From positions 1-34,827 of the forward strand of contig CACCGK010000009.1 in the NCBI GenBank assembly GCA_902545555.1: a DNA stretch of 34,827 nt, in the 5' to 3' direction. Below the pieces are notes generated by a model. The model was not told the DNA's origin. It ran no database searches and saw only the letters and a list, made by a program, of their open reading frames with translations. Positions within the stretch are counted from its first letter, which is position 1, and every line of letters begins with the position of its first letter. A program made the position numbers and the translations under genes. The DNA comes from an uncultured Pelagibacteraceae bacterium. Its GTDB lineage: Bacteria; Pseudomonadota; Alphaproteobacteria; Pelagibacterales; Pelagibacteraceae. Below are positions 1,993-34,827 of the stretch, one piece after another.

Positions 1993-2510
1993 AAGAACCT
2001 GCTATTTTTTTTGATAGAGACGGAACTTTAATAAAGACAAATATTAAAAATTCAAAACCTATTGCAAATAATAATGTCGAGAAATTAAGTTTTTTTAAAG
2101 ATAGTTATAAAGTTTGTAAATTTTTAAAAAAAAAATATAGACTTTTTATAGTTACTAACCAGCCAGATGTGGGTTCAAAGAAAATTAAAAAAAAGGATGT
2201 TATATCTATAAATAATAAAATTAAAAATGAATTAAAAATATCTAAAATTTATAATTGTTATTGTTACAAAATTAATTGTAAATTTAAAAAACCAAATCCT
2301 GGCATGATAACAAAGGCGGCAAAAGAATTTAATATAGATTTAAAAAAAAGCTATATGATTGGAGATAGATGGAAGGACATTGTATCTGGAAAAAAAGCAA
2401 AATGTAAAACTATATTGATTAAGAAAAGTTATTCAGAGGTTGCTAAATGTAAACCAGATTATATAGTTGAAAATTTAGGTGAAATTTTAAAAATTATAAA
2501 TTATGAATAA
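1986..2510 (+). CDS. gmhB: HAD phosphatase, heptose 1,7-bisphosphate 7-phosphatase (GmhB) type
   Basis: A HAD-superfamily phosphatase of 174 residues, expected to remove the 7-phosphate from D-glycero-D-manno-heptose 1,7-bisphosphate. Motif I is FFDRDGT with nucleophile Asp10 and acid/base Asp12; motif II is VTNQPDVG; the substrate-specificity region ends in KKPNPGM, the histidinol-phosphatase/GmhB hallmark; motif IV is GDRWKDI. GmhB enzymes carry a Cys-rich zinc loop before KPxPGM. Here a shortened form with three cysteines (NCYCYKINC) is seen, so zinc binding may be altered. The start is GTG at 1986, inside the end of the isomerase gene, implying translational coupling. The 3' end overlaps the transaldolase by 8 bases. 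Histidinol phosphatase is less likely given the neighbours. Confidence 0.85.
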   Translation: MVKEPAIFFDRDGTLIKTNIKNSKPIANNNVEKLSFFKDSYKVCKFLKKKYRLFIVTNQPDVGSKKIKKKDVISINNKIKNELKISKIYNCYCYKINCKFKKPNPGMITKAAKEFNIDLKKSYMIGDRWKDIVSGKKAKCKTILIKKSYSEVAKCKPDYIVENLGEILKIINYE

Positions 2511-3225: not shown

Positions 3226-3238
3226 GTCTAAAATAAAT

Positions 3239-4774: not shown

Positions 4775-5862
4775 TGAAAAAATATTTCAATGTCGTATGG
4801 ATATTTTTTAGAATTTTAAAAGAATTTCAAACACCATCCACAAATATTGGTAAAAAAATTTATAAACTTTTTAGTATTTTTGCGTTAAAAAATAAAAACT
4901 TAAAGCCCAGTGAAATTCTAATATGTTTTTATGACCTAAATGCTGCTCCTACTACATTTAATTTCTCTGAATTTATTTTATTATGTAATAATGAAACTTT
5001 AACTAAAAATTTAAGTGGCTATAAAATCATATTTATAAAAAAAAAAAAAAATTTAATTAATAAATATACTGAAGACAAACAATACAGATCTGTCCACGAT
5101 TCTGAAAGTGAGGAATGGAAATTTAATAATATAATTCTACCTTTAATAAGCTTTACTAAATATTGTGTTGGCTATGATTTTTTAGAAAGTGAAAAAGCTG
5201 TTGAAAAGTACTTAAAATATCAGCACAGATATCCAAAAGAATATTCTAAGCAATTTAAAATTAATATAAATAATTTAGATTTGTACAATAATATAGATAA
5301 TCTTGATAAAATTGGCTTAGAAATCCCAAGTAACACAAATGTTTACATTCAGGAATATTTAAAAAAAAAATTTGAAAACACAAAAAAAATTATAACTATT
5401 ACAATAAGATCCCAAAAATACGATAAAATTAGAAATTCGAATGAAAACGATTGGTTGCAATTTGCACAATTCTTAAAAAATAAAAATTTTGAAGTTGTTA
5501 TTATTCCAGATACAGATAATGCTTATTCTTTAGATGATAAATTTAAAGAATTCAAAATTTTTCATGAAGGTTCTTTTAATTTAGCATTGAGAATGGGATT
5601 GTATTCTAACGCTTTTTTTAATTACTTTGCTGGTGGTGGTCCTAGTTCGCTTTGCACTTTACACAAATCAAACAAATATATAATGTTTAATTATGGGCCT
5701 ATTGAAGGATCTATAGTGCATACAAAAGAATCATTCGAAAATTTTAAAGAAGCACCAAAAGAGAAATTTAAATTTGCAAATAAAAATCAAATTTTAATTT
5801 GGGAAAAGGATAATTACGAAAATATGATTAAAAGTTATAATAAATATATATTAAATGAATAA
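4774..5862 (+). CDS. Unrecognised protein, possible GT-B-fold glycosyltransferase
   Basis: I do not recognise this 362-residue protein with certainty. The N-terminus (MKKYFNVVWIFFRILKEF) is amphipathic rather than a clear signal peptide. The C-terminal half contains ITITIRSQKYDKIRNSNENDW, a strand-turn-helix (FEVVIIPDTDNAY) and a late block (NYFAGGGPSSLCTL, then NYGPIEG). A basic TxR after a strand, a central Rossmann-like strand ending in Asp, and a glycine/serine-rich turn followed by a hydrophobic strand are what a nucleotide-binding half of a GT-B glycosyltransferase would show. It is the last gene of the heptose operon, joined to the kinase fusion by a shared A (TAATG), so a heptosyl- or related sugar transferase is an attractive guess only. 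It converges on the GT2 gene with a 3-base gap. Confidence 0.6.
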   Translation: MKKYFNVVWIFFRILKEFQTPSTNIGKKIYKLFSIFALKNKNLKPSEILICFYDLNAAPTTFNFSEFILLCNNETLTKNLSGYKIIFIKKKKNLINKYTEDKQYRSVHDSESEEWKFNNIILPLISFTKYCVGYDFLESEKAVEKYLKYQHRYPKEYSKQFKININNLDLYNNIDNLDKIGLEIPSNTNVYIQEYLKKKFENTKKIITITIRSQKYDKIRNSNENDWLQFAQFLKNKNFEVVIIPDTDNAYSLDDKFKEFKIFHEGSFNLALRMGLYSNAFFNYFAGGGPSSLCTLHKSNKYIMFNYGPIEGSIVHTKESFENFKEAPKEKFKFANKNQILIWEKDNYENMIKSYNKYILNE

Positions 5863-11008: not shown

Positions 11009-12505
11009 ATGAAATATTTAAATAATAAAATTAACATATATTTTTTTATATTCTCATTTCTATGTCTATTCATATTTATTTATATTTATGACATTTTTTT
11101 AAATGAAAATTTTTTTAATTATAACTTTCATTATAAATCAAATGTTTTAGATTTATATGCACTACAGGATCATACACAGTTACTAAAATCTCATTTTAAT
11201 CACAATATATTTATTGATTTAAGTTTAGGCATTTTATTAGCTAACTATATTTTAATTAAAATCCCTCAGATAATTAAAAACAAATCGACTTCTTTTCATC
11301 TTCAAATAATTTGGTTATTAAAAATTTTTTTTATTTTTACAGTTTTCTCAATATACGAAAGAAACTTACTTTTAGATCAAAATATATTTTTTATGGGAGC
11401 TATTAACAATTTTGAAGCATTTGAATTTTTAGATTTTAAAAACAAATATATATCTGAAACTTTATCAAGTGCATTTCTTTTATATCTTTTAAAAATTTTA
11501 AATTTATTTTTTTTTAATTCGTGGTTTTCTTTCAAGGTTTTTTTGACACTTTTATATTTAATAACTGTAATTTATAGTTTTAAAACAATTGAATTATTTT
11601 TAAAAAAAAATAATGTTGTTTTTTTATATATTTTATCATTTGTGCCCTCTTTTTTTTATTCTAGTTCTTTGATAGTTAAAGATATTTTAATTCTACCATT
11701 AATTGTAATATTTTTTTTTAGCTTTTTTAAATTATTTTTTACATTGAATAAAAAAGAATTAATAAAAATTTTGTTAATAATTTTTTTTTCTATTTTTACT
11801 ATAGGTTTATTTAGATTTTGGATAGCACTATCTTGCTTGCTATGTATCCTCGTTTTTTCAATATATTTACTAATTAGTGAGACTAAACAATATATAAATA
11901 AAAGTAATTTTAAAAATTTTTATTTTGTAATTTTTTTATTTTTTTTATTCTTTATATTTTTATCTCTTATTGAAGAGGCTATTAAATTACATTCATATCT
12001 ACAATTTCAAATTTCAGATAGTTATAGAAATTTTACTGTAAACAAAAATTATAATAGTGGCTTAAATTTATATTATGGTATCGAAAGTTACAAAGATTTT
12101 TTATTTAAGATACCAAAATTATACTTTTATTCTGTGTTTAATCCTTTCTTAGAAAACATTTTTCATTTCAAATATTTTTTGCTTATTTTTGAAAATTTAA
12201 TCTTTTGCATCCTAATTATATTGACTTTCTTTATAAAAAAATTTCCTAAAAAAATAAAATTATTATTGGTTGTTTATTTAACTTATATATTTATTTTTGT
12301 TAATATTTACATGTTTGTAAGTTATGCCAGTATTGGAACAGGTTTTAGATATTCGGCACAATTAAAGATTCCTCTGCTTGTGTTGATGTTTATATTGAAT
12401 AAAGAAAAATTGGACAGTTATTTTCTTTTTTTATCGAAAAAATTAAAGAAAATCGTATTTAAGATCAATGACAAAGTAAGTCCAAAACATATTAAAGATA
12501 AGTAA
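11009..12505 (+). CDS. Polytopic membrane protein, Wzy-like polymerase candidate, copy A
   Basis: A 498-residue inner-membrane protein with roughly 10-12 hydrophobic segments, starting near residues 8-29 and ending about 450. Landmarks: YERNLLLDQ (116-124), NSWFSFKVFL, FVPSFFYSSSLIVKD (211-225), LFRFWIA with Arg269, SVFNPFLENIFHFKYFLLIF, and GTGFRYSAQLK (443-453). A P-S-x-x-F-Y-S-S-x-x-x-K-D turn between helices, plus conserved arginines in polar loops, resembles O-antigen polymerases of the Wzy/EpsG kind, though I do not recognise the exact family. The protein at 14611-16065 is a clear paralogue with the same motifs at nearly the same positions. The final 88 bases overlap the convergent gene at 12418-13158. 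The basic tail is cytoplasmic by the positive-inside rule. Confidence 0.75.
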   Translation: MKYLNNKINIYFFIFSFLCLFIFIYIYDIFLNENFFNYNFHYKSNVLDLYALQDHTQLLKSHFNHNIFIDLSLGILLANYILIKIPQIIKNKSTSFHLQIIWLLKIFFIFTVFSIYERNLLLDQNIFFMGAINNFEAFEFLDFKNKYISETLSSAFLLYLLKILNLFFFNSWFSFKVFLTLLYLITVIYSFKTIELFLKKNNVVFLYILSFVPSFFYSSSLIVKDILILPLIVIFFFSFFKLFFTLNKKELIKILLIIFFSIFTIGLFRFWIALSCLLCILVFSIYLLISETKQYINKSNFKNFYFVIFLFFLFFIFLSLIEEAIKLHSYLQFQISDSYRNFTVNKNYNSGLNLYYGIESYKDFLFKIPKLYFYSVFNPFLENIFHFKYFLLIFENLIFCILIILTFFIKKFPKKIKLLLVVYLTYIFIFVNIYMFVSYASIGTGFRYSAQLKIPLLVLMFILNKEKLDSYFLFLSKKLKKIVFKINDKVSPKHIKDK

Positions 12506-13158
12506 TACAAAACATTAAATTTATGTTCATATTTTTCAATTAAAAATTCAAAATTTAATTTTTCAATTTTGATTGATTTAAGTTGATCTATATTTGGTCG
12601 AAATTCATATTTTCCATATTTCTCAATTTCATTCTCTAGAAAATTAAAATATGACATAGCTAAATTATTACTTTTAAATGCTTTATTAAAACAAAAATTG
12701 AAATAATTAATAAAACTACTTTCTGCTTGCTGAAATGATTCAGAATGATTGAATTTAATTAAAATTTTATCAATAAATTTTCTATTATAAAAATAACCAC
12801 CCTGGAGACTTATAGATTTGATTAAATTTTTATCTAAGTTATTATTTTTTTTTTGATACTCTTGTATAAACAAATTGTTTTCTTGCAAACACAAAAAACC
12901 CTCAGTTAAAAATTGATTTGTTGATTTATCCTTAAATTTTTTAATTGAAATATCTATTGTTGGTATTTGTGTTATCAATATATTGTTAACGTCATTTACA
13001 ATTACATTATTAAAATCAAAAATTTTATCAATTTTACCGTTTTTCTCAAATAAGTAGGAACTTCTGTATTTATTGTTGCTATAAAAAATAAAATAAAAAT
13101 TTAAAAAGATGAAATATAAAAAAAATATAACTAAGAATGATTTTATACTCTTATTCAT
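12418..13158 (-). CDS. Bitopic membrane protein, Wzz-like topology, copy A
   Basis: A 246-residue protein with one hydrophobic helix at each end (about 7-27 and 214-238) and a soluble, probably periplasmic, domain between. This is the layout of polysaccharide co-polymerases (Wzz), although no definite Wzz signature is visible. The segment SISLQGGYFYNRKFIDKILIKF aligns with SVSLEGAYFLMPEHIDKVTI in the larger protein at 16025-17293, so the two appear related, with this one much shorter. It lies 9 bases downstream of the GT-C gene on the same strand. Its last 88 bases are antisense to the end of the Wzy-like gene A. A chain-length regulator partnered with that polymerase-like protein is the working idea. 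Confidence 0.62.
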   Translation of the reverse strand: MNKSIKSFLVIFFLYFIFLNFYFIFYSNNKYRSSYLFEKNGKIDKIFDFNNVIVNDVNNILITQIPTIDISIKKFKDKSTNQFLTEGFLCLQENNLFIQEYQKKNNNLDKNLIKSISLQGGYFYNRKFIDKILIKFNHSESFQQAESSFINYFNFCFNKAFKSNNLAMSYFNFLENEIEKYGKYEFRPNIDQLKSIKIEKLNFEFLIEKYEHKFNVLYYLSLICFGLTLSLILNTIFFNFFDKKRK

Positions 13159-13167
13159 AATACCTCA

Positions 13168-14601
13168 TTATTTAAAATATTTATTTACATTTAAAGATAA
13201 CTTATTAAAAAATATAATACTTAATAATGAAAGTATTGGAAACATTGGAATAAGATATCTACTTTGTGTGAGCGGCACCCAGCTTGTATAAACATACAAA
13301 TGACCAATTATCAAACTAAATGAATATAAAAATATTTTATTATATCTATATTTTTTAAAAAATATAATACCGTATGCACATAATATAATTGATGGAAGTG
13401 TATATATTAAATTATAAATTGTATAAAAAATAAATGTAATTTTATTACTATTAAAACCTGATTTATTTTTATAGAAACTTGAAATTCTTGGAGCAAACAA
13501 TATTTTTGCAATTCTTGAAAGAGGAGCAGTAAAATAAAGTGATGGACTATGGCGATATCTTTTTTCACTTATCTCTAAAAATTTATTGTTCATTTCCTCA
13601 GGATACTTAATTGGATAATTCGATACTCCATATCTTATATCAGGAATTTTTTGTAACAACCTAAAAGCCTCGTCAATATCTTTGTTCTCACCATCATAAA
13701 CTGTCTTATAAACTTTAGGTTTTTCAATTGGATTTAAAATTAGAAGTGGTTCGTTGTATGATTTTACAAATTTCTGATAATTTTTATTATACATAACCTT
13801 CCATTTATTTATATTTGATTTGAAACCAATAGGAGTAATAATATCATTATTAGGTAGCTCATAATATTTTTTAAAAACTATATTATTTCTTAATATCCAT
13901 GGTGATAAAAAAATAAGTACCATAGAGGAAATAATAAAATATTTAGATATAATTTTTAAATTAAAATTTTTAGAATTAAATAAATCAATGCAAAAAAAAA
14001 TAATAAATGTGATCAACAAAATCAAAGAAAATATTGGTCTTACGTATATGATTGCAGCATATACAAACGAAAGAAAAATTAAATTATAATATGGTAAATC
14101 AAAAAAAAATTCTTTTTTATTATGATTTTTAAAAATTATCCAAAAAGAAAGAGTAATTAAAAAACAATAAAGTGTTTCTGTCATTATCATACCGGAGTAA
14201 ATAGTTGTATAAAGACAAGAAATAAGTAGGAAAGATAAAAAATATTTTAATTTATTAGAAATTTTTAAACCACTTGCTATATCCATGATTAATACACAAG
14301 ATAAAGAGTCAATAAAAAATTGCGTAAAAATAATAGAATTTAAGTTTTCTGAAAATAAAAAAGAAAAATATATAAAAAATGGATATCCAGGAGTTCTGTT
14401 CATCCCTGGTTCACCATTTTCTCCGATTATACCAAAATCTTTAATTGATTTAGCTATATTAATATATTCTAGAGAGTCGTCTGTTAAACCCCATGTGTCA
14501 AAAATTTGAAAGTAATATAGCGTAGATCTATAAATAAAAGAAATTAGAAATGTGAATAATAATAATTTTATTTTATTTTGTTTTTTAATTAATAAATTCA
14601 T
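13168..14601 (-). CDS. GT-C fold membrane glycosyltransferase (GT39/GT83, ArnT/PMT-like)
   Basis: A 477-residue protein with many hydrophobic segments. The first extracytoplasmic loop carries LTDDSLEYINIAKSI with Asp41/Asp42, followed by MNRTPGYPFFIYF (68-80). The D-x-x-x-Y...R-x-P-G-Y-P arrangement is the acidic catalytic loop and following motif of the PMT_2 (ArnT-like) superfamily, which uses polyprenyl-phosphate sugars as donors on the periplasmic face. Late helices around residues 380-470 include a small SWVPLTQSRYLIPMFP loop, also typical. Its start is 9 bases from the divergent Wzy-like gene B, so both share a very small promoter space. The DPM1-like GT2 at 5866 could provide its lipid-linked donor. 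Acceptor unknown. Confidence 0.78.
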   Translation of the reverse strand: MNLLIKKQNKIKLLLFTFLISFIYRSTLYYFQIFDTWGLTDDSLEYINIAKSIKDFGIIGENGEPGMNRTPGYPFFIYFSFLFSENLNSIIFTQFFIDSLSCVLIMDIASGLKISNKLKYFLSFLLISCLYTTIYSGMIMTETLYCFLITLSFWIIFKNHNKKEFFFDLPYYNLIFLSFVYAAIIYVRPIFSLILLITFIIFFCIDLFNSKNFNLKIISKYFIISSMVLIFLSPWILRNNIVFKKYYELPNNDIITPIGFKSNINKWKVMYNKNYQKFVKSYNEPLLILNPIEKPKVYKTVYDGENKDIDEAFRLLQKIPDIRYGVSNYPIKYPEEMNNKFLEISEKRYRHSPSLYFTAPLSRIAKILFAPRISSFYKNKSGFNSNKITFIFYTIYNLIYTLPSIILCAYGIIFFKKYRYNKIFLYSFSLIIGHLYVYTSWVPLTQSRYLIPMFPILSLLSIIFFNKLSLNVNKYFK

Positions 14602-14610
14602 TTAAATATA

Positions 14611-16065
14611 TTGGTTGTGAAAAAAAATCATAGTTTTATACATTACAAATTTTTCAACATTGAAAATAAATATAAATATTTATTTTTTTCTTTATTATTA
14701 TTTTGCATTGGTTTTATAATAATTGCTAAATATTCAAACTATATACCTATACATGAAAATACAATAACAGATTATATACAAGGGGATGATTTACCTTTTT
14801 TTAAAAATAATCAAATATTTTATGATCTATCTTATAGCCTTATAATTTTTATAATATTATTTAAATTATTTGATAACATTAAATCATCATTTCTTAGAAC
14901 GAATATGAAAATAATATGGATAATAAAAAGTTTCTTCTCTTTATTCTTAATATTAATTTACGAGAAAGATGCAGGTTTAGATCAAGTTGTTTATTTTGAT
15001 ATAATAAATAATCAAAAAGTTTGGGCGCAGCATTATGGCTATATTTATAATTTTATTAACTTTGAAAGTGCAACAAGTAATTTCTTAATTCCATTTAAAT
15101 ATTTGAATTTTGTTTTTATTGATAGCTGGTTTTTAATTAAAATTTTTTTAAATTTAATTTATATTTCAACTGTTTACATATCTTACAAAATTTATTTAAA
15201 AATCAATCCAATTAATTCTTTTTTCATTTTTTATAGTTTTAGTTTTTTTCCTACATTGTTTTTTTATTCATCTATATTAACAAAGGATTTATTTATATTA
15301 TTTTATATTCTAGTTTCATTTTATTTTTTTCAAAAACTAAACATGAATTTAAATTTAAAAAATTTTAAAAATATTATTATCATTATTTCCTCATTGTTTT
15401 TAATAAGTACAATTAGAATCTGGATGGCACCATTAGTACTACTATCAATGTTTATTCCAATAATATTTTATTATACTTTTAAAAGAATGATCATATTCAA
15501 CAAAAAATTTTTTTTATTTGTTCTATTTTTTGTTTTTATTGGACTTATTTTTTTTCTAGATACGAATATATGGAATAATATAAAAATAGATTTCACGGAA
15601 GAACAATTTAATAGAGTGCATAATTGGCATGCATGGGATCCTAATAAACATAATATTATTGGAGTTAATGCCGAAAACATTCAGCAATTGTTAATATATG
15701 ATTTTTGGAAAATGATGTTTTTAACACTATTTAATCCTTTTTTAAATTATTACTATGAATTGAAATTTTATCCGTTCATTTTTGAAAACATAATGATTAT
15801 TTTTTTAATATTTTATTCAATATTAAATAAAGATTTCAAAACAAATAAAAATATTTTATTTATTTTTTTTATTACCTTGGGATATAGTTTATTGTATGCT
15901 CATGCAGGTGGGTTTCTTAATCCAGGAACATCATTGAGGTATTCTTTACAAATTAAATATTTAATATTTATTTATTTATTAAGTCTAAATAAAAAATCTC
16001 TTGATATTTTATTTTATAAATTTTTTATTTATCTGAAAAACTTCTATAAACAATATGTGAAATAA
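14611..16065 (+). CDS. Polytopic membrane protein, Wzy-like polymerase candidate, copy B
   Basis: A 484-residue paralogue of the membrane protein at 11009-12505. Corresponding blocks are IWIIK (102), YEKDAGLDQ (117-125), DSWFLIKIFL, FFPTLFFYSSILTKD (212-226), TIRIWMA with Arg269, LTLFNPFLNYYYELKFYPFIFEN, and GTSLRYSLQIK (439-449). Offsets are only a residue or so over the first 270 positions, so these are genuine duplicates that have diverged. Roughly 10-12 membrane segments are seen. The start is TTG at 14611; a GTG at 14617 would also serve and removes only two residues. Its last 41 bases overlap the convergent Wzz-like gene B, the same arrangement as in copy A. Function as a polymerase is inferred from topology and neighbours. 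Confidence 0.75.
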   Translation: MVVKKNHSFIHYKFFNIENKYKYLFFSLLLFCIGFIIIAKYSNYIPIHENTITDYIQGDDLPFFKNNQIFYDLSYSLIIFIILFKLFDNIKSSFLRTNMKIIWIIKSFFSLFLILIYEKDAGLDQVVYFDIINNQKVWAQHYGYIYNFINFESATSNFLIPFKYLNFVFIDSWFLIKIFLNLIYISTVYISYKIYLKINPINSFFIFYSFSFFPTLFFYSSILTKDLFILFYILVSFYFFQKLNMNLNLKNFKNIIIIISSLFLISTIRIWMAPLVLLSMFIPIIFYYTFKRMIIFNKKFFLFVLFFVFIGLIFFLDTNIWNNIKIDFTEEQFNRVHNWHAWDPNKHNIIGVNAENIQQLLIYDFWKMMFLTLFNPFLNYYYELKFYPFIFENIMIIFLIFYSILNKDFKTNKNILFIFFITLGYSLLYAHAGGFLNPGTSLRYSLQIKYLIFIYLLSLNKKSLDILFYKFFIYLKNFYKQYVK

Positions 16066-17293
16066 GTGAAAAAATAAGTGCAAATGATAGATAAGGTATT
16101 AACTCAAGATAATTTCTTTTAAACTCTACCTCATTTAAATTTGAAAATATTTTCTTTTTAATATTATCTAAATTATAATTTTTCGAGTTTATAAATCTAT
16201 AATCAAAATTATTATCCAGTAAATTAAGTTTATCTCTTATTTGCGACACATGCATAATTTTTTCAATAAATACTTTCGAAAAGCCATTTTGTATAATTTT
16301 ATAATAGTTTTTAAAATTGTAATTTTCATACACTATCCATCTGGTAATTAATTCTTCGAATAAAGAATTTTTTTTCACATATGTTTCAGACTTAAAACTT
16401 AATTTTTTTTTTGCTTCTTTAATTAAATTATCAAATTCTGTATCATCATCAGATACAGAGATATCAAATACATTAATTGAATTTAATTTTAAATAAATGT
16501 TGAACAATTTTTTGATTATTTCTTCTGTTATTGTGGGACATGAAACCTTTATTTCTCCCACAAAATAAAAAGGGCACTTTAAATAATTTACTAATTCATC
16601 TATATCATTTTTAGAAAAATATTCCTCAGTGTTCATATTAATATTTTTTTTATTGTCATAAATTAAAATTCTTACAAAATCCAAAAATCTCGAATGTAAA
16701 TCCCTTATCATATTGATCTCTGAAATATGATTTGCGTAAGATAATTCTGTAGGAATTTCAGTATCTAAACTTCTTAAATTCTGAAAATACTTATCAACTT
16801 CAGTATCAATAATATATTTATAATAATCTAAAAAAATAACTTTGTGATTTTTCTCTGACAGAAATAAATTTATTGTTACTTTATCAATATGCTCTGGCAT
16901 TAAAAAGTATGCTCCCTCTAAACTGACATTGTTTATAATTTTTTCTAATTTTTTAAATTCCTCTTCATTTAGTTTTTTAAAATTTTTATATTCATATTTG
17001 TAATTTTTATTAGTTTGAGCGAATCTTATAATATTTGAAAATATTTGCTTAGCGTGGTGTTCAAACGCATTATGTTTTATTATTTTTGAAGAATATAATT
17101 TCTCATAAAGATCCATACCCTCTTTAAGTTGTTTATAATCTTTAAAAGATTCAAGTATTATATTGCCAGACAATTTATTGTGTACAAATTTATATTGATA
17201 AATTTTTCCTGAAAAAAATAAAAAATAAATAATTACAAAAGAAGTTGTTAAAGTAAGAATATACCAAAAAAAATTTTTTTTATTAATATTCAT
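16025..17293 (-). CDS. Bitopic membrane protein, Wzz-like topology, copy B (long form)
   Basis: A 422-residue protein with a membrane helix near residues 9-27 and another near 396-416 enclosing a long, charged, mostly helical soluble domain. SVSLEGAYFLMPEHIDKVTI (123-142) matches the corresponding part of the 246-residue protein at 12418, and both sit convergently against a Wzy-like gene. Wzz-type co-polymerases have this two-helix layout, with the bulk of the protein in the periplasm controlling glycan chain length. The extra 170 residues follow the shared block. No ATPase or tyrosine-kinase domain is present. It is the last gene of a leftward operon after the methyltransferase (24-base gap), and its end is antisense to the last 41 bases of Wzy-like gene B. 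The assignment is tentative. Confidence 0.62.
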   Translation of the reverse strand: MNINKKNFFWYILTLTTSFVIIYFLFFSGKIYQYKFVHNKLSGNIILESFKDYKQLKEGMDLYEKLYSSKIIKHNAFEHHAKQIFSNIIRFAQTNKNYKYEYKNFKKLNEEEFKKLEKIINNVSLEGAYFLMPEHIDKVTINLFLSEKNHKVIFLDYYKYIIDTEVDKYFQNLRSLDTEIPTELSYANHISEINMIRDLHSRFLDFVRILIYDNKKNINMNTEEYFSKNDIDELVNYLKCPFYFVGEIKVSCPTITEEIIKKLFNIYLKLNSINVFDISVSDDDTEFDNLIKEAKKKLSFKSETYVKKNSLFEELITRWIVYENYNFKNYYKIIQNGFSKVFIEKIMHVSQIRDKLNLLDNNFDYRFINSKNYNLDNIKKKIFSNLNEVEFKRNYLELIPYLSFALIFSLISHIVYRSFSDK

Positions 17294-18212: not shown

Positions 18213-18929
18213 TTAACTAATTGATTTTCTTTTTTTAAAAAATTTGCAAAGCAAATCATAATCTTTTTTATTATCACAACATTGCCAAAAACCTTTGTGC
18301 TTGTAAGAAACTAAATGTTTCATTTTTACTAATTTTTCTAAAGGTTTTTTTTCAAGAACTATATTTTTTTTTTTTTCAATTAAATCAAAAATTTTTATAT
18401 CAAATATGAAAAAACCAGCATTGATCCAACCTTTATCTTTTTTAAACTTTTCTTTAAAGCTCGTAACATAATCATTTCTATCTGTTTGAATGATTCCAAA
18501 TCTGTTTGGAGGCCTCACTGTTGTTACCAGTCCTATTTTTTTCTTTTTTTTAAAAAGATTTAATGCCTTTTTAATATTACAATTAGATAACCCATCTCCA
18601 TATGTTAAATAAAAATATTTGAAATTGTTGTTTTGTTCCAAGTATTTTTTTGCTTTTAAAACTCTACTTCCAGTCTCTGTGTTTAACCCTGTATTTAAAA
18701 CTTTTATATTCCATTTACTGTAATGAGATTTTTTAAATTCTTTATTAAATAATTTATGCTTGTAGCCTGATAATACTATAAAATCTTTAAGATTAAAATT
18801 GCTGTAATGTTTCATTATGTACCAAATCAACGGCCTACGTGCGATGTTAATTAATGGTTTTGGTTGCTTGATTGTTTTTTCAGAGAACCTGGTTCCCTTA
18901 CCACCTGCAAGTATAAGTACTTTAGTCAT
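18213..18929 (-). CDS. rfbF: Glucose-1-phosphate cytidylyltransferase
   Basis: Makes CDP-glucose from CTP and glucose 1-phosphate, the first step to CDP-deoxyhexoses. The 238-residue protein opens with VLILAGGKGTRFSEKTIKQPKP: the nucleotidyltransferase GGxGTR at 9-14 followed by the FSEETxxxPKP form specific to RfbF rather than RmlA or GalU. Further family landmarks are YLTYGDGLSNCNIKKAL, TTVRPPNRFGII, FKEK, GWINAGFFIFD, and the C-terminal GFWQCCDNKKDYD matching RfbF GFWQxxDTxRD. It is shorter than the usual 257 residues because a loop between the second and third strands is missing. It is divergent from the RmlC-like gene with 45 bases between. Its natural partner RfbG is at 305-1352 and is frameshifted. 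Confidence 0.92.
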   Translation of the reverse strand: MTKVLILAGGKGTRFSEKTIKQPKPLINIARRPLIWYIMKHYSNFNLKDFIVLSGYKHKLFNKEFKKSHYSKWNIKVLNTGLNTETGSRVLKAKKYLEQNNNFKYFYLTYGDGLSNCNIKKALNLFKKKKKIGLVTTVRPPNRFGIIQTDRNDYVTSFKEKFKKDKGWINAGFFIFDIKIFDLIEKKKNIVLEKKPLEKLVKMKHLVSYKHKGFWQCCDNKKDYDLLCKFFKKRKSIS

Positions 18930-26827: not shown

Positions 26828-27807
26828 ACTTACATACTGAAGTAACAGTTATCTTAATTAATTATAATCAATCTAAATATCTAAGAGATGCAATTAAAAG
26901 TGTTTTAAATCAGTCTTATAAAAATTATGAATTAATTATTATCGATAATGGTTCCATTGATAATTCAAAAAAAATTATAGAGACATTCTTAAATGATAAT
27001 AGAATCAATTATTTAAACTATAATAAAAATGATGCCGTAACTAAAAGACTCAATCATGCAATATCTATAGCAAAAGGCAAGTATATAAATTTTTTAATGG
27101 CTGACGATATGATTGAAAAAAATAAACTAAATAGTCAATTAAATATATTTAAAAAACTAGACGATGATTATGGAGTTGTATACGGACCATCAATAATTAT
27201 AAATGAAAATAATAAAAAAAATTATTTAGCAGACGTTGTGAAGATTAACGGTAATGGTCTTTCTGAACAATTAAAAAAAAATCTGCTAAATGGACACATT
27301 AATTTTAATTCAGCCTTAATTAAAAAGAAATGTCTTATTGATTACCCAATGCTAGAAACTATCTTTATTGAAACAGAATCAATTTTCTTGTGCTTTGCAT
27401 TAAAATATAAATTTAAATATGATAGTAATCCAGTTTGTTATTTTAGAGAGCATAGTGAAAATATTGGAAAAAAAATTTTCGATAATCTTGATCGTCATAT
27501 TAAACGAATAGAAGAACTCAGAAAATTTAATTTAATAGAAAAAAAGTGTAAAGATGAAGAAATTCAAACTTATAAAGGAAATATTATTTTGAATATTATT
27601 TGGTATAATTTACGAACTAATGGAGCAAAAAAAAAGAACTGGAAATTAATTAGTGAGATAATAAAAAATCACAAATATTTACTTATAAAAATGAAATTTT
27701 TTTTATCTTTAATTTTAACACTCAGTCCAAATACTATAACTTTAATATTAAATTATATTATTGATAGAATCAGACGAACCAAACATAATAATATTAGACT
27801 AGATTAG
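26812..27807 (+). CDS. Glycosyltransferase family 2
   Basis: A 331-residue GT-A enzyme. VTVILINYNQSKYLRDAIKS opens the fold, followed by YELIIIDNGSIDNSKKII, RLNHAISIAKGKYINFLMADDMIE with an A-D-D metal-site variant, and a downstream IETESIFLCFALKYKFKY acidic region. The start ATG at 26812 lies inside the end of the asparagine-synthetase-like gene, so translation is likely coupled. The last residues are moderately hydrophobic (LILNYIIDRI) but do not form an obvious membrane anchor. It is the last gene of the rightward run and meets the leftward double GT4 with a 4-base overlap at the stops. Sugar unknown. Confidence 0.86.
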   Translation: MVQELNLHTEVTVILINYNQSKYLRDAIKSVLNQSYKNYELIIIDNGSIDNSKKIIETFLNDNRINYLNYNKNDAVTKRLNHAISIAKGKYINFLMADDMIEKNKLNSQLNIFKKLDDDYGVVYGPSIIINENNKKNYLADVVKINGNGLSEQLKKNLLNGHINFNSALIKKKCLIDYPMLETIFIETESIFLCFALKYKFKYDSNPVCYFREHSENIGKKIFDNLDRHIKRIEELRKFNLIEKKCKDEEIQTYKGNIILNIIWYNLRTNGAKKKNWKLISEIIKNHKYLLIKMKFFLSLILTLSPNTITLILNYIIDRIRRTKHNNIRLD

Positions 27808-30029
27808 TTCTTTAGGTCTTTTAAAACTTTACTGTAAACAATATCCCATTTTTTTATAATTTTTTCATTACTATAACTATATTCAGCATACTCTCTTCCA
27901 ATTTTCCCTATTTCTTCTCTTTTTTGTTTATCTACAATAAGTTTTTCGATTTGGTTGTACCAATCATTATCATCAAAACAATAATGATTTAAATTAGCAT
28001 TCTTCATTGTTCTATAGTAAGCATTTGATGCACTTGTTATAACTGGCAAACCCAGTCTCCAAAAAAGTAATAATTTATTCTCAGGTTTTCCTGCTATAAA
28101 ATTATCTTTCAAATCAGTTGGTATTATAGCTAAATCTGAATTTAAAATTATTTTATAATAATTATTAAGACTCCATTTATGTAACTTAAAAATACTATTT
28201 CTTTTAAATATTTTATTTATTTGTTGAAAAGTATGAACATCATAAAATTTGTTAAGATAACTTTTGTATTTTACATCGGTTATGACATTTAAATTTAATT
28301 TATATTTCTTTGATAATTCTATTAAGACCGAGGAAACAATTTTCAACAGATATACGTTTTGTGGAAGTCCTTCCCATACTATCTGAAATTCAGGACCACT
28401 CTGTTTATAATTTTTTTTGTATGTAGATTTAACCGTCGTATCTTTAAGATCTAATATTACCTCTACATTCTTATTATATTTTTGAATTAATTTTTTCTGC
28501 TCAATTGTGGAACAAATAACAAGATTTGCTCTTTTGCACATTTTTCCCAGCAAATTCCAATAGTTAAAATATAATTTTTTGTGCTGACCAAAAAAATACT
28601 TTGCAATACTTCTCAACCAACCCTTAACATTCGTTTTGCTTATACTTAAGTAAGAGTCCGTTAAATCATAAATTATATATGAATATTTTTCATGAAGCCA
28701 TCGGGTAATATCTGCTTGTTGAGTTAAAAAAACAATTTTATGACTTGAGATGTCATTCAATATCTTAAAAGGTAATTTTTTCTTTTGTAAAAAAAATGCA
28801 AATCGTCTTCTATCGCCAGGTGAATTAAGATCTTTTGTTAAAGGAACTAAACCAATCTCTTCATAACTTTTGGTATCACAATTAAAAATAATATTTTGAT
28901 ATATTTCAAGATACTTTCGAGAGATTAAACTAATATTAAAATTAGACAAATTACTTTTTAGACCTTTTAACAAATTTGTCTTTTTTTGAGTTTTAAAATT
29001 CACTATTTTATATAATTTATTTGCAATTTGTTTTGGTTTTTTTATCGGAATAATTAAATTAGGGTCATTTACTATTTTAGTAGAATCCCCAACATCTGTA
29101 CTAACAGTTAAAGTATTATTTATTATACTTTCAACTAATACATTTGGAAAACCTTCAGAATCTGATGAAGTTAGACAAAAAATGTCTAAAATTTGATATA
29201 TATCATTTATGTCAACAGATTTAGGCTCTAAAAGAATAACGTCGTTTTTTAAATTTTTATCATGTATTTGTTTCAACAGTTTTTTATTCTGTTTAATGCC
29301 TTTTCCTAAAATAAGAAATTTAACTTTATTTATTTTTTTTTTGAGAAAATAAGCACTTCTTACAAAAGTAGAATGATCTTTCATTGGATGATCTCTTCCT
29401 ATATTTCCAATTAAAATATAATCTTTGCCTATACCGATTTGTGATCTCAAAAAATTTCGTACACTTGTTTTTTTAAAATTACTTATATTATTTAAATTAT
29501 ATCCATTATGAATCACCTCAATCTTTGATTTTTCATACCCTAAATTTATATGATCTTTTTTTCCATTGTGAGAGTTTGCAATTATTTTTTTTGGAATTAT
29601 TCCAGAAAAAATTGATAAAATTCTCACAAACATTCTGCTAAAAAAATTAAGATGTCTCATAGTATTTGAAGATCTTATACTCCAAACAATATTTTTTCTT
29701 TTTTGCAATATTGAAATTATTGTAGCTATAAGATCTGATCCATAAAGCCAACTATGAATTAAATCTGGATCAATTTTATTTATTAAATTATAAATTTTAA
29801 AAAATACTAAAAAAGAATTATTTTGTTTATAATTTAATTCGTAAATTTTTATATTTTTAAGATATTTTTTATAATAACTTGAAATATCATCAATACTCAA
29901 AATATGTATTTCATAATTAATATTATTTTGATTTTTTGACAAATAATTACATAAAGAAACTAAATTTTTTTCTGCTCCACCAATTTGTAAACTGTTTATT
30001 ATATATAATATTTTAATTTTTTTTTTCAT
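27804..30029 (-). CDS. Fused double glycosyltransferase (GT4 plus GT4-like)
   Basis: A 741-residue protein, about twice the usual GT4 length. Residues 1-382 are a complete GT4: ILYIINSLQIGGAEKNLVSL at the start, IHSWLYGSDL, NSHNGKKDH, VIHNGYN, LIGNIGRDHPMKDH, and the ExxxxxxxE nucleotide site DSEGFPNVLVES (Glu292, Glu300). After a linker near 385-395 a second GT-B-like unit begins, with LNSPGDRRRFAFFL, DITRWLHEKYS, IVWEGLPQNVYLLKIV, and a late GKPENKLLLFWRLGLPVITSAS. The second unit lacks the classic ExxxxxxxE spacing. The frame is continuous and the gene overlaps the upstream GT2 by 17 bases, so this is a true fusion rather than two merged genes. It may add two consecutive sugars or pair a catalytic with a recognition unit. 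Confidence 0.82.
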   Translation of the reverse strand: MKKKIKILYIINSLQIGGAEKNLVSLCNYLSKNQNNINYEIHILSIDDISSYYKKYLKNIKIYELNYKQNNSFLVFFKIYNLINKIDPDLIHSWLYGSDLIATIISILQKRKNIVWSIRSSNTMRHLNFFSRMFVRILSIFSGIIPKKIIANSHNGKKDHINLGYEKSKIEVIHNGYNLNNISNFKKTSVRNFLRSQIGIGKDYILIGNIGRDHPMKDHSTFVRSAYFLKKKINKVKFLILGKGIKQNKKLLKQIHDKNLKNDVILLEPKSVDINDIYQILDIFCLTSSDSEGFPNVLVESIINNTLTVSTDVGDSTKIVNDPNLIIPIKKPKQIANKLYKIVNFKTQKKTNLLKGLKSNLSNFNISLISRKYLEIYQNIIFNCDTKSYEEIGLVPLTKDLNSPGDRRRFAFFLQKKKLPFKILNDISSHKIVFLTQQADITRWLHEKYSYIIYDLTDSYLSISKTNVKGWLRSIAKYFFGQHKKLYFNYWNLLGKMCKRANLVICSTIEQKKLIQKYNKNVEVILDLKDTTVKSTYKKNYKQSGPEFQIVWEGLPQNVYLLKIVSSVLIELSKKYKLNLNVITDVKYKSYLNKFYDVHTFQQINKIFKRNSIFKLHKWSLNNYYKIILNSDLAIIPTDLKDNFIAGKPENKLLLFWRLGLPVITSASNAYYRTMKNANLNHYCFDDNDWYNQIEKLIVDKQKREEIGKIGREYAEYSYSNEKIIKKWDIVYSKVLKDLKN

Positions 30030-30885
30030 TTATTTTTAAATTAATTAAATCAACTAGGAATATAAATAAACCAAAAATAAAAAAAATAAAAATTTTAAAA
30101 TCAATTTTTAAAGGTTTTTTAGAGTGGAGTGAGTATCTTATAAAATTTATTAAGGAGGCAAGTCTAAAAATATTAGATTTGTATTTTTGATTTTTATAAT
30201 AAATCCAGTATAAATTTTTCATATGAATTGGACTTTTAAATTTAGTTAAATTTATTCTATGGGTAATTCCATCTTCAAAATATTCTTTTAAAACAACTGG
30301 TTTGTTCACAAAAATACAATTTAATTTATGTGAAGCTTTTGCCCAGATTAATCCTGTTGGGACTCTTTCAAACCTTTTAATTTTGATTTTTTTTATTGTT
30401 TTTTTTAATAATTTAGAGTCTACAGTCTGTTTCATGTCAGTTTTAATTCCTAAATCTGCTGTAATAGATATAAAATTTCCATTCATATCTGGAGGAGTCG
30501 AATTAATAACTTTTAAATTATTTTTCTTAACTAAAGTTCCAAAAACATAAAACTTATTTTTTTTTGTTTTCAAAGAACTTAGAATAATGTCTATACCATT
30601 TTTTAAAAATTTATCATCATCATCAAGAATTATTGAAAATTTACCTTTTGCTTTGTTTATACCATAAAATAATGCTTTTGATCTTCCAGAATTTTTAATT
30701 TTAAAAAAATTTATATTAATTTTTTTTTTAAACTTAAAAAAAAAATTTTTTAAATCATAATTTGATCCATCATCAACTACTATGACTTCAAAATCTTTTG
30801 TTTTTCCGTTTATTGATTTTAAACAACGTGTTAATAATTTTTTCCTATTATAAGAAGGAATAATTATTGACAATATTGGTCGCAT
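30013..30885 (-). CDS. Glycosyltransferase family 2 with C-terminal membrane anchor
   Basis: A 290-residue GT-A enzyme. SIIIPSYNRKKLLTRCLKS and FEVIVVDDGSNYDLKN open it, followed by RSKALFYGINKAKGKFSIILDDDDKFL with the DxD site and a downstream DFKIFIFFIFGLFIFLVDLINL that looks like one membrane helix near residues 262-282. The gene shares one base with the UDP-glucuronate epimerase stop and overlaps the double GT4 by 17 bases, so it sits inside a tightly coupled leftward operon that also contains the flippase and phosphonate genes. The donor could be UDP-galacturonate or a phosphonate-bearing precursor, but nothing in the sequence decides. Confidence 0.85.
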   Translation of the reverse strand: MRPILSIIIPSYNRKKLLTRCLKSINGKTKDFEVIVVDDGSNYDLKNFFFKFKKKININFFKIKNSGRSKALFYGINKAKGKFSIILDDDDKFLKNGIDIILSSLKTKKNKFYVFGTLVKKNNLKVINSTPPDMNGNFISITADLGIKTDMKQTVDSKLLKKTIKKIKIKRFERVPTGLIWAKASHKLNCIFVNKPVVLKEYFEDGITHRINLTKFKSPIHMKNLYWIYYKNQKYKSNIFRLASLINFIRYSLHSKKPLKIDFKIFIFFIFGLFIFLVDLINLKINEKKN

Positions 30886-31901
30886 TAAGTTTTAATTTTA
30901 TAATATTTTTTATACCAATCTATAAACTTAATTAACCCGTCATTAATTTGTGTTTTTGGAAATTTATTGTTTATATTTTTTAATTTAACTATATTGGCTT
31001 TAGTTTTAAATATATCGCCTGGTTGAATTTTTAATAATTTTTTTTTACTTTTCTTTGATAATAATTTTTCAATTCTTAAAATCAAATCCATCAGCTTAAC
31101 AGATTTATCATTACCTAGGTTAACTATATTATAAGGTGCAAAACTTTCATCGACATTTAAAATTTTTTTATTTTTTTTTTGTAAATTTTTTTTGGGTATT
31201 TTTTTTATTAAACTACAAATTCCCTCAACAATATCATCGATATAAGTAAAGCTTCTTTCGTGTTTGCCATAATTAAAAATATCAATTTTTTTGTTTTCAA
31301 TAATATTTTTTACAAACATAAAGATTGACATATCCGGTCTTCCCCAAGTACCATATACTGTAAAAAATCTCATTCCTGTGGTTGGAAGATTAAATAAAGA
31401 ACTGTAAGAATGTGCTATTAATTCATTGGATCTTTTTGTAGCTGCATAAAGTTGCAAAGGATGATTTACTTGATCAGTCTCCTTATATAAATTTTTTTTT
31501 GAATAACCATATACACTACTTGAACTTGCATAAAGAAAATGTTTGATTTTTTTTCTTTTTGCCAATTCAATAGTATTTACAAAACCGACTAAATTACTAT
31601 TAACATAAGCATGTGGATTTTTTAAAGAATATCTAACGCCTGCTTGTGCTGCTAAATTTATAATTATATCAAACTTTTTAGCTAAAAATTTTTTTATAAA
31701 TTTGTTGCTACTTATATTTTCTTTATAAAATTTAAATTTTTTTTTTAATTTTATTAAATTATTAATTCTATCTCTTTTTAATTTAGGATCATAATAACTA
31801 TTTAAATTATCTACACCAATGACATAGTGACCTTGGCTTAATAATTCTTTCGCTAAATGGAAACCTATAAATCCTCCCACACCTGTTAATAAAATGTTCA
31901 T
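30885..31901 (-). CDS. UDP-glucuronate 4-epimerase
   Basis: Interconverts UDP-glucuronate and UDP-galacturonate with bound NAD. The 338-residue SDR has GVGGFIG (7-13), VDNLNSYYDPKLKRDRI, NLAAQAGVRYSLKNPHAYVNSNLVGF, SSSSVYG, catalytic Tyr152/Lys156 in YAATK, RFFTVYGTWGRPDMS and ERSFTYIDDIVEGI. The NLNxYYDxxLKxxR and AGVRYSxxNPxAYxxSNLxGF blocks are specific to UDP-glucuronate 4-epimerases (LpsL/Cap1J type) rather than GalE. It overlaps the ABC transporter gene by 4 bases and the GT2 by 1. A UDP-glucose dehydrogenase of the ordinary kind is not certain in the window; the 9745 gene could serve. Confidence 0.9.
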   Translation of the reverse strand: MNILLTGVGGFIGFHLAKELLSQGHYVIGVDNLNSYYDPKLKRDRINNLIKLKKKFKFYKENISSNKFIKKFLAKKFDIIINLAAQAGVRYSLKNPHAYVNSNLVGFVNTIELAKRKKIKHFLYASSSSVYGYSKKNLYKETDQVNHPLQLYAATKRSNELIAHSYSSLFNLPTTGMRFFTVYGTWGRPDMSIFMFVKNIIENKKIDIFNYGKHERSFTYIDDIVEGICSLIKKIPKKNLQKKNKKILNVDESFAPYNIVNLGNDKSVKLMDLILRIEKLLSKKSKKKLLKIQPGDIFKTKANIVKLKNINNKFPKTQINDGLIKFIDWYKKYYKIKT

Positions 31902-33694
31902 AATTTCTTTTTAACTTCTTTGTTTACAGTCAACTCTTTAAATAACAAGTTATTTGTTGATAATTCATTAAAATCTCCTTGGGCAACTATTTTTCCATTA
32001 TCTAACAAATAAATATTATCAAAATTTTTTAAAAGATTAGTGTTATGAGTTATTAAAATTATTATACTTACATTAGTAAATTCAAGAATATTCGAGAGAA
32101 TTTTATTTTGATTAATTGAGTCTAATGCACTTGTGGCTTCATCTAATATTAAAACTTTTGGATTATTATATAATGCCCTAGCAATTCCAATTCTTTGTTT
32201 TTGACCTCCCGAAAGGGATTTTCCATAATTTCCTATTTTATCATTGTTTATATCTATATTATTATTCTCCAAAAAATCATTCAAAAGGCAAATTTTTGAT
32301 AATTTATCAATTAATTCTTTATTATGTTCTTTATCAATAGAGATGTTTTTTGAAATTGTGTCATTAAACAAAAATATACTCTGGGAAACAAATCCAATTT
32401 GTTCTCTTATGGATTTAAGTGATAACTTTTCGATGTTTTTATCATTTACTAAAATTGATCCGTTATTTGGATCAATAAATCCTAATAATAAATCAATGAC
32501 TGTAGATTTTCCAGAGCCAGATTTACCTACAATTCCTATTTTTTGATTTTCTTTAAAAAATAAATTGATTTTGTTAATTGTTTTATTCTGATTATATGCA
32601 AATGATACATCATCAAACTTAAGTGATGATATCTCTTTAATTTGTATTTTTTCCTCATCAGAAATTTTTGAAATTTTACTTAATTGTTTATCTTGTTGTA
32701 ATTCTTCATAAATTGTCTCAAATGAATCTCTATGTCCATATAGATCAGTTAGTGCATAATAAATTGCTTGCATTGCGGGTAATAATTTATATCCAGCGGA
32801 TCCAAATATTGCTAAATTAAGAATCATATCATCAGTAGAAGAATCGAAGTATAAAAAAACTGAAATTATTATTATTAAAATAGTAAAACTAAATAATTCA
32901 ATTACATATTTTGGAACATTTCCGATTGTCTTTAAAAATATTTGATTTGAAGCTATTTCATTAAAATTATTTCTTACTTGTTTTTTCAAAAATTTTGTTC
33001 TGTCATAATAAATAGCTTCTCTAATACCTGATAAAGTATTTGAAATATATTCATAAACAAAACCTAACTGATGAGTTATTTCTTTACCTGCTTTATCTAC
33101 TTTTTTCTTAAAAAGTTTTCTAGTTATGCCATAAAACAAAAGTATCAAAAAAAAAACTATTAAAGAAATTTTAAAGTTATAAAACAGCAGAACTACAAAA
33201 ATCATTAGACAAATTAAAATTTTTGAGAGAGCTGTTACAAGGCCTCTTAAAAATTGATCTGTAAATCTTTGAACATCTGCTGTTATTTTTTTAAATATTA
33301 TACTGGTATCATTATTAACAAAATACAAATAATCCTGATTTAAATAATAGTTGTAAAGTCTTTGAGAAAAATCTGATCCAACAAAACTGGTAAAACTATT
33401 TTGATATTTTATAGACAAAATATTTGTTATAGCTGATAAAAAAAATAAAATGATAATAGATACACCTGCATAAATAATAGTTTCTAATCTACTTAAATTG
33501 TAATAACTAATTAAATTATCAAATAATGAAAAATTTATACTTACGTTAAGAATCATTGATAAGTATATAGCTAAACAACCAATTGAGATAATTTCTAATA
33601 ACGATGAAATCCCAATCAAAAATTGAAGTTTATAAAAAAAAATTAATTGATCTTTTGATAAAATTGAAAAAAAATTTCTTAATGTTTTTATCAC
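31898..33694 (-). CDS. ABC transporter, fused permease and ATPase (PglK/MsbA-like flippase)
   Basis: A 598-residue half-transporter. The first 320 residues hold about six membrane helices, including 20-48, 72-96 and 157-190. The C-terminal ATPase has Walker A GKSGSGKS (390-397), Q-loop GFVSQS (434-439), signature LSGGQKQR (494-501), Walker B LILDEA (515-520) and the switch His in ITHNT. The layout and length match lipid-linked oligosaccharide flippases such as PglK and the lipid A exporter MsbA. In this island a glycan-lipid flippase is most likely, since no Wzx-type flippase is seen. It overlaps the epimerase gene by 4 bases and follows the aminotransferase with a 1-base gap, so it is cotranscribed with phosphonate genes. 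Confidence 0.9.
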   Translation of the reverse strand: MIKTLRNFFSILSKDQLIFFYKLQFLIGISSLLEIISIGCLAIYLSMILNVSINFSLFDNLISYYNLSRLETIIYAGVSIIILFFLSAITNILSIKYQNSFTSFVGSDFSQRLYNYYLNQDYLYFVNNDTSIIFKKITADVQRFTDQFLRGLVTALSKILICLMIFVVLLFYNFKISLIVFFLILLFYGITRKLFKKKVDKAGKEITHQLGFVYEYISNTLSGIREAIYYDRTKFLKKQVRNNFNEIASNQIFLKTIGNVPKYVIELFSFTILIIIISVFLYFDSSTDDMILNLAIFGSAGYKLLPAMQAIYYALTDLYGHRDSFETIYEELQQDKQLSKISKISDEEKIQIKEISSLKFDDVSFAYNQNKTINKINLFFKENQKIGIVGKSGSGKSTVIDLLLGFIDPNNGSILVNDKNIEKLSLKSIREQIGFVSQSIFLFNDTISKNISIDKEHNKELIDKLSKICLLNDFLENNNIDINNDKIGNYGKSLSGGQKQRIGIARALYNNPKVLILDEATSALDSINQNKILSNILEFTNVSIIILITHNTNLLKNFDNIYLLDNGKIVAQGDFNELSTNNLLFKELTVNKEVKKKL

Positions 33695-33695
33695 T

Positions 33696-34676
33696 TTAAT
33701 AAAACTTTAATTTGTCTAAAATTTTTCCCTCTGATTTATCCGCCAAATGAATTTCACCCAAGTGACTTACAATTGATCCACTTGATTTTGATCGTGGTAG
33801 ATACAATATTACTTTTTTATTTTTTTTTATTTTTTTAGTAGTATATGTACAAAGTTGAGGTTGATTTCTGCTTTTGTAAATTAATGAATTTTTCATCATA
33901 ATCATAAATTTTTTTTTATTTATAATCACAGATTTTTTTACTTTCTCAAAATTTTTCATTATAAGATACAAAGAACAAATAGTACTATAAGGTCCAGTAA
34001 CCTTTTTTTCTAAATGTGTATTAATGTCTTGGTAAAATGAAAGTTTTCTCTTTTTTAATGTTTTTATATTATATCCAATGAAAGCTGCACCAGTTAAACC
34101 AAATATTCCTTTACATGAGCTAAAACTTATAACAGAAGCCAACTTATGATTTTTTTCAAGTCCTATTGATCCTGTCGCATCTAACATAAGTTTTGCACTG
34201 CATTTCTTTGAAAAATCAGATAAATCTTTAATTGGAACTAATAAAGCTTTACTTGTTTCAGTAGGACAAGCAATAACCCAATCAAATTTACTTTTAATTT
34301 TATTTGAATAAATTTCTGTCCATGGAATAATTTTAATTGTTGAGTATATTTTGTAATTTTTTTGAAATCTCTTAATTATGTCTATAACTCTATCAGAATA
34401 GTAGCCTGTAGAAATTACTGCAATTTTACCTTTTAAAAAATTGAGCACCATAAGCTCAATTGCAAGTGTGCCTGAACCTTGAAATGTTACCAAATTCTTT
34501 TTTTGAGATATTTTTTTTAATTTATTTAAAACAAAACGTTCTATTTCCTTATACTCTTTATCGTTACGCCCAAATGTATTCTTTAAGCCTAAAATATTAA
34601 GCTCACTTATCCCTCCTGGTCCAGGACAAAAAGTGCTTTTAACATTAATCTTTTTAATGAAGTTATTAATCTGCAT
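33696..34676 (-). CDS. Class V PLP aminotransferase, 2-aminoethylphosphonate transaminase-like
   Basis: A 326-residue fold-type I PLP enzyme of the class V group. STFCPGPGGISELNILGL opens it (family PGP), with TFQGSGTLAIE (64-74) matching PhnW QGSGTxxxE, ACPTETSKALLVPI, LMLDATGSIG with cofactor-binding Asp166, and SFSSCKGIFGLTGAAF with the Schiff-base Lys189. It lies 2 bases downstream of a PEP mutase C-terminus in the same orientation. PhnW interconverts phosphonoacetaldehyde and 2-aminoethylphosphonate, the natural step after PEP mutase and phosphonopyruvate decarboxylase. The protein is somewhat shorter than typical PhnW (about 360 residues), so another amino- or pyruvate-linked reaction on a phosphonate is possible. 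No decarboxylase is visible inside the window. Confidence 0.85.
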   Translation of the reverse strand: MQINNFIKKINVKSTFCPGPGGISELNILGLKNTFGRNDKEYKEIERFVLNKLKKISQKKNLVTFQGSGTLAIELMVLNFLKGKIAVISTGYYSDRVIDIIKRFQKNYKIYSTIKIIPWTEIYSNKIKSKFDWVIACPTETSKALLVPIKDLSDFSKKCSAKLMLDATGSIGLEKNHKLASVISFSSCKGIFGLTGAAFIGYNIKTLKKRKLSFYQDINTHLEKKVTGPYSTICSLYLIMKNFEKVKKSVIINKKKFMIMMKNSLIYKSRNQPQLCTYTTKKIKKNKKVILYLPRSKSSGSIVSHLGEIHLADKSEGKILDKLKFY

Positions 34677-34678
34677 TA

Positions 34679-34827
34679 TTATTTAATATAATTTAGCACT
34701 TTTCCCAGTGTAGCTATTTTTTTTTCTGTCTCAAATGTCCTTCCATTTTTAAGTATGTTTTTTGCCACTTTTTCCATTGAAGGTATTGATGATCTCATTA
34801 AATGATTAGCATAAATTACAATGTTAA
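34679..34827 (-). CDS. pepM: Phosphoenolpyruvate mutase, C-terminal fragment (cut by window edge)
   Basis: The minus-strand frame enters from the right edge and ends with TAA at 34679-34681, giving 48 residues: NIVIYANHLMRSSIPSMEKV and then a helix AKNILKNGRTFE. The stretch VIYANHLxRSxxPxMxxVAxxIL is the characteristic end of PEP mutase, the TIM-barrel enzyme that isomerises PEP to phosphonopyruvate and starts almost all natural phosphonate pathways. The stop is 2 bases from the start of the class V aminotransferase, so the two genes are cotranscribed. Catalytic residues lie outside the window, so the mutase cannot be told from a lyase-like relative (isocitrate lyase superfamily) with full certainty. 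The VIYANHL motif and the transaminase next door favour PEP mutase. Confidence 0.83.
   Translation of the reverse strand, partial: NIVIYANHLMRSSIPSMEKVAKNILKNGRTFETEKKIATLGKVLNYIK

Follow-up and report, generated by a model that had tools for sequence, protein, structure and literature searches.

A PhnW-related class V aminotransferase beside the PEP mutase gene of a SAR11-type bacterium, probably part of a phosphonate and glycan gene cluster

The stretch of DNA analysed here (34,827 nucleotides, hereafter the window) is, with a probability that we put at roughly 70%, the 3′ part of a SAR11 phosphonate cluster in which PepM, Ppd and an aminotransferase (AT) lead to 2-aminoethylphosphonate (AEP), followed by CMP activation and attachment to a glycan. 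In this pathway, PepM would convert phosphoenolpyruvate to phosphonopyruvate; the phosphonopyruvate decarboxylase Ppd, encoded outside the assembled sequence, would form phosphonoacetaldehyde from it, and the AT of the window would aminate phosphonoacetaldehyde to AEP. A small cytidylyltransferase, as in relatives, would then activate AEP with CTP, and the activated AEP would be joined to a glycan that is built by an SDR enzyme and glycosyltransferases of families 2 and 4 (GT2 and GT4) and flipped by a PglK-type ABC transporter. For this organism, we infer the substrate and product of the AT, and we propose the activation and the attachment by analogy with relatives. The window is the entire contig C9 of a genome of 1.05 Mb in 43 contigs, which is 77% complete. 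Two named relatives sharing the AT are uncultured Pelagibacteraceae single cells and, therefore, the source of the window is taken as SAR11-type, in line with the marine-type bacterium suggested by a preliminary description made from the DNA. The results support the proposal, made in the same description, of a surface glycan or lipid bearing a phosphonate such as AEP, in which AEP is the probable product and a glycan the presumed acceptor.

The right edge of the window holds the C-terminal 48 codons and the stop codon of pepM, the PEP mutase gene, on the minus strand (34679..34825). The open reading frame (34682-34825, with the stop at 34679-34681) translates to 48 residues, NIVIYANHLMRSS...NYIK, which the preliminary description had read as the C-terminus of PEP mutase. 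A profile search of this frame bears that reading out: the NCBIfam PEP mutase model TIGR02320 matches with E 1e-11 and 44.4 bits over profile positions 234-280 of 284, and at E values up to 1 the only other match in NCBIfam is phosphonopyruvate hydrolase, far behind (E 0.038, 13.1 bits). The tail is a fragment, and the whole-protein cut-off of TIGR02320 is thus out of its reach; a Pfam scan of the 48 residues gave no match. When aligned locally with the PepM-family genes of the genus, 46 in number, the tail reached scores of 81 to 149; with the other superfamily member of its own genome it scored 39, and 100 shuffled versions of the tail, each compared with 10 of these genes, gave 52 at most. 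The match is not due to chance and, judged by its sequence, the frame is the C-terminus of a PEP mutase; an enzyme of the isocitrate-lyase or methylisocitrate-lyase type is ruled out by the NCBIfam matches together with the control scores. The contig end falls inside pepM, and the EDK(x)5NS region, with everything upstream, lies beyond the sequence. This motif is found in 44 of the 46 PepM-family genes of the genus (L085 included), is missing in L099, and L100 is a fragment; it is present in the pepM of all 15 neighbourhoods that carry the AT. L099 (G342:C9) is a second PepM-family gene of genome G342 and stands above the family cut-off without EDK(x)5NS. In L077, the PepM part belongs to a protein of 659 aa that does not match the cytidylyltransferase domain commonly fused to PepM, and no Ppd, AT or alcohol dehydrogenase is labelled in its stretch.

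On the same strand, separated from pepM by 2 bases, lies the gene of the AT (33696..34676, minus strand), a class V PLP aminotransferase of 326 aa that matches TIGR03301 below its cut-off. The four genes that follow it, also on the minus strand, are as tightly packed as the preliminary description had stated, with successive gaps or overlaps of 1, –4, –1 and –17 bases. The first (31898..33694) encodes an ABC transporter that is, by similarity, a PglK-type lipid-linked oligosaccharide flippase: residues 6-570 of its 598 align to the PglK structure 5c73, and it scores 278 bits with the NCBIfam PglK model NF050066, under the cut-off of 1000. The second (30885..31901) is an SDR nucleotide-sugar epimerase, possibly a UDP-glucuronate 4-epimerase, whose closest structures are 5u4q (2.6e-108) and 6zl6 (2.3e-48), with a match to the Epimerase family PF01370 (8.9e-49) and none of the NCBIfam cut-offs shown reached. 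A GT2 (30013..30885; PF00535, 1.4e-20) and a protein with a GT4 in its N-terminal half (27804..30029; PF00534, 1.9e-24, and PF13439, 2.4e-16) complete the row, and the C-terminal 361 aa of the latter have no Pfam match at E 0.001. Of the functions assigned earlier to these genes, the GT2 stands as it was; the flippase belongs to the ABC transporters, where PglK is the lipid flippase closest to it, and is not a Wzx; the UDP-glucuronate 4-epimerase is an SDR for which that function is possible, short of the NCBIfam cut-offs shown; and the double GT4 is reduced to one GT4 half and a second half matchless in Pfam at E 0.001. Elsewhere in the window, a row comprising a SIS-domain gene, a HAD phosphatase, a transaldolase-family gene and a nucleotidyltransferase-PfkB fusion (1411-4774) looks like a pathway of the NDP-heptose type with an inserted transaldolase. 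Six open reading frames of considerable size are without a Pfam match at E 0.001 (4774-5862, 11009-12505, 12418-13158, 13168-14601, 14611-16065 and 16025-17293); five of them lie together as a block midway through the glycan region, and several look membrane-bound by eye.

The 399 genomes drawn from the genus were searched whole, and PepM above the curated cut-off is present in 44 of them (45 genes), which together with one partial gene (G444) give 46 neighbourhoods. The AT occurs in 15 of these stretches. Accompanying it in 14 of the 15 AT stretches, and in none of the other 31, is a small protein of the PF01467 family, which is 129 aa long in L023 and differs from the PF01467 domain that PepM carries as a fusion. 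The Fisher p of 6e-11 is indicative only, since the reference was taken from a cluster of the AT type, the identity limit of 45% was chosen by the analyst, the rows are related (L065 and L066 being almost identical) and the stretches are of unequal length. A separate cytidylyltransferase gene of another kind is found in six of the 31 stretches without AT. In the window, no small cytidylyltransferase was recognised on the contig, nor any by Pfam near the AT, and the window's two proteins of the nucleotidyltransferase family, at 18213-18929 and 3239-4774, look like sugar enzymes and are at least 14 kb from the AT. The LicD, TPP-enzyme and CDP-alcohol transferase families gave no Pfam match in 32 of the 34 window frames of at least 80 aa, the two frames outside the Pfam scans overlapping other genes on the opposite strand. 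A motif scan for CDP-alcohol phosphotransferases in the neighbourhoods pointed to three genes, in L055, L057 and L071, of which two belong to AT stretches and only that of L071 is confirmed by Pfam; these are too few for any argument to be drawn. As a separate observation, an APS-kinase-like gene and a B12-binding radical SAM gene occur in four of the 15 AT neighbourhoods (L058, L060, L061 and L096; reference stretch L023 9331-12139), with a PhyH dioxygenase gene also nearby in L058, L060 and L061; no radical SAM gene is labelled in the 31 stretches without AT, and this set suggests that an activated phosphonate is modified further.

The link between the phosphonate and the glycan of the neighbouring genes has a rival reading, namely that these genes adjoin only because they share a variable glycan region, so that the phosphonate would not be in that glycan at all. 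Such an arrangement, which is compatible with the enzymology preferred here, appears doubtful to us but keeps some weight: the genes flanking the AT vary from genome to genome, and sugar and glycan genes occupy much of the window. Against it, the AT, ABC, SDR, GT2 and GT4 genes overlap or almost touch on one strand, LicD-family genes are present in two of the AT stretches (L059 and L071), and the PglK-type ABC transporter is somewhat commoner beside AT clusters (7 of 15 stretches versus 4 of 31 others), although its p of 0.024 is weak and confounded by stretch length.

The proposed formation of AEP leans on the gene order around pepM in the genus. The order PepM-Ppd-ADH, where ADH is an iron alcohol dehydrogenase, occurs in 22 of the 46 neighbourhoods and PepM-Ppd-AT in 10. 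Following the established pathway, we take the ADH of these neighbourhoods to reduce phosphonoacetaldehyde to 2-HEP and, since the AT fills its place after Ppd, the substrate of the AT is most likely phosphonoacetaldehyde and its product AEP. AT and ADH alternate after Ppd, as expected of two users of the product of Ppd; they are not mutually exclusive, since among the 15 AT and 25 ADH stretches two hold both genes (L062 and L063), as does L024, outside the 46. In L059 the order is Ppd-AT-PepM. The immediate succession of PepM and AT seen in the window recurs in L057 and L071; in L071 Ppd is just upstream and divergent, and in L057 it is elsewhere in the genome.

The direct PepM-AT junction of the window could alternatively reflect a two-step pathway in which the AT would act on phosphonopyruvate itself and give phosphonoalanine, Ppd being unneeded. 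The window and L057 indeed have the AT after PepM with Ppd neither between nor adjoining, no Ppd was found in the 77% complete assembly of the window, and a pathway of PepM and a phosphonopyruvate aminotransferase is described in Streptomyces (PMC11867202). We nevertheless regard it as unlikely. Each of the other 15 genomes searched that carry the AT also encodes Ppd. In 14 of them it exceeds the cut-off; that of G019 scores 284.7 bits and lies on a separate contig, where its neighbours are a nucleotidyltransferase and an asparagine-synthase-like gene. In the 10 neighbourhoods named above Ppd sits precisely between PepM and the AT, and PnaA, as the Streptomyces enzyme is called, belongs to the aspartate aminotransferase superfamily according to that source, whereas the AT is of class V and nearest to PhnW. 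Furthermore, the missing Ppd of the window says little, because the assembly is incomplete and also lacks the weak second match of the Ppd search, presumably acetolactate synthase, which 15 of the 16 other genomes have. In the genus relatives, the same AT has a complete PepM with EDK(x)5NS close by, and most of these stretches also hold Ppd. The AT, then, probably makes AEP from phosphonoacetaldehyde.

As for the AT itself, the QGSGT motif (residues 66-70) and Lys189 pointed out in the preliminary description are both present. Lys189 and Asp166 align with a lysine and an aspartate of PhnW, are invariant in an alignment of 16 AT rows, and are taken here to be the PLP residues, as in PhnW. The earlier label of PhnW-like aminotransferase holds insofar as the enzyme is PhnW-related, of class V and 2 bases from pepM; it needs amending in that the AT forms a separate clade and reaches 65.3 bits with TIGR03301 (6.3e-18), against a curated PhnW cut-off of 360.8. 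All 16 AT rows match TIGR03301 at E ≤0.001 (best 2.5e-23), and a profile of the 16 members searched against structures finds a PhnW-type structure first (7e7g, 1e-19). Of the 49 rows in a tree, 17 are AT, and these are set apart from all the others by a branch that has a support of 100/100 and is 4.46 changes per column long. Within the AT side, the grouping of the window AT with L088 is discarded: it joins two long branches, and the program flags it as possibly false.

The C-terminal region sets the family apart. In class V aminotransferases, the arginine of the motif FRxGxxG holds the carboxylate of the amino acid. Near the C-terminus, FR[IVM]GxxG is found in 20 of 20 PhnW-family sequences extracted (drawn from 21 matches, with L131 left out because no reading frame was extracted from it and L130 under the cut-off) and in 13 other class V rows of the tree (12 distinct, L107 being the same gene as the PhnW row L129), versus none of 18 AT-family sequences, in which L060 repeats L023. 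The N-terminal two thirds of the AT align with PhnW and the last 60 residues align poorly; here the global profile alignment places a gap in the AT opposite the motif arginine of PhnW. Arg295 and Gly300 of the AT are invariant in the 16-row alignment, and an alternative pairing of Arg295 with the PhnW arginine and of Gly300 with the last glycine preserves the R-x4-G spacing; Arg295 may hence be the PhnW arginine within a changed motif. An AlphaFold model of the AT built from three sequences has a mean pLDDT of 42.7. Being far under the PhnW cut-off and lacking the C-terminal motif, the AT may have a substrate different from that of PhnW. That the missing motif and the long branch instead betray a PLP enzyme of a non-transaminase reaction type acting on a phosphonate aldehyde is improbable, given that Lys189, Asp166 and the N-terminal two thirds of the protein align with PhnW and that the invariant Arg295 and Gly300, in a poorly aligned region, may be the same arginine in an altered motif.

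A profile built from the AT genes beside pepM gave 18 matches at E 1e-20 in the 399 genus genomes, 16 of them with at least 241 bits; all 16 (the window included) are on a contig with pepM, and no strong member was found away from pepM in these whole genomes. The two weaker matches (G066 and G368, 85-89 bits) are longer proteins with FRxGxxG. In 398 genomes of the phylum, the sole strong match is the window's own, with four others at 60-63 bits; three of these four were rejected as AT, falling among PhnW in the tree (L110 is outside the tree). Two scans of viral contigs found no AT relatives. In the 399 genus and 398 phylum genomes, strong members of the family are so far confined to this SAR11 genus.

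Beyond the window, we lean slightly towards a more general proposal: that a class V AT family without FRxGxxG replaces PhnW and works alongside a small cytidylyltransferase dedicated to it. The phosphonate producers of SAR11 would then fall into an AEP type, with AT, and a HEP or methylphosphonate type, with the iron alcohol dehydrogenase, and a few would have both. If true, surveys based on the phnW model would probably miss the AEP type. The phosphonate made decides between methane release, from methylphosphonate, and an AEP pool, and with a gene marker that tells the types apart, the single-cell genomes already available could be sorted. The AT is, moreover, a small enzyme with an unusual C-terminal region, open to testing.

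SAR11 pepM clusters beside glycan genes have already been published (Acker et al., 2022, PMC8931226), and phosphonates on surface glycoproteins are proposed there; in the same study, Prochlorococcus phosphonate was recovered with protein and not with polysaccharide, and phosphonate production by SAR11 was, as of its publication, without experimental confirmation. According to a survey in which phnW was included, this gene may have a role in deep-ocean production (PMC9381506). No description of the AT family in SAR11 was found in the open-access main texts looked into; within that literature, the association of SAR11 phosphonate genes with glycan genes is known, and no account of the separate AT branch or of its link to the small cytidylyltransferase was found.

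The window shares with the SAR11 and Prochlorococcus clusters (PMC8931226) a pepM placed by glycan assembly genes, but the route outlined there runs via 2-HEP to methylphosphonate, and the word "aminotransferase" is absent from the main text. PnaA (PMC11867202) is, like the AT, an aminotransferase coupled to PepM, although its superfamily, as described there, is another. In the Pnt phosphonyl tailoring pathway, with its PntC cytidylyltransferases and Ppm fusions (Rice et al., 2019, PMC6697681), the parallels with the AT-type relatives are a PepM-PF01467 fusion (L023), an extra nucleotidyltransferase and, in two of them, LicD; however, the two characterised PntCs are PF12804 proteins, whereas the second enzyme of the AT clusters is the small PF01467 protein. 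The ABC transporter of the window is similar to PglK (5c73) over nearly its full length, yet far short of the PglK cut-off. Finally, PhnW and AepZ (TIGR02326 and TIGR03301) provide the nearest curated models and solved structures for the AT, sharing with it the columns of Lys189 and Asp166 and a QGSGT-like motif; unlike them, the AT is about 40 residues shorter, is devoid of FRxGxxG, forms a clade of its own and is linked to pepM.
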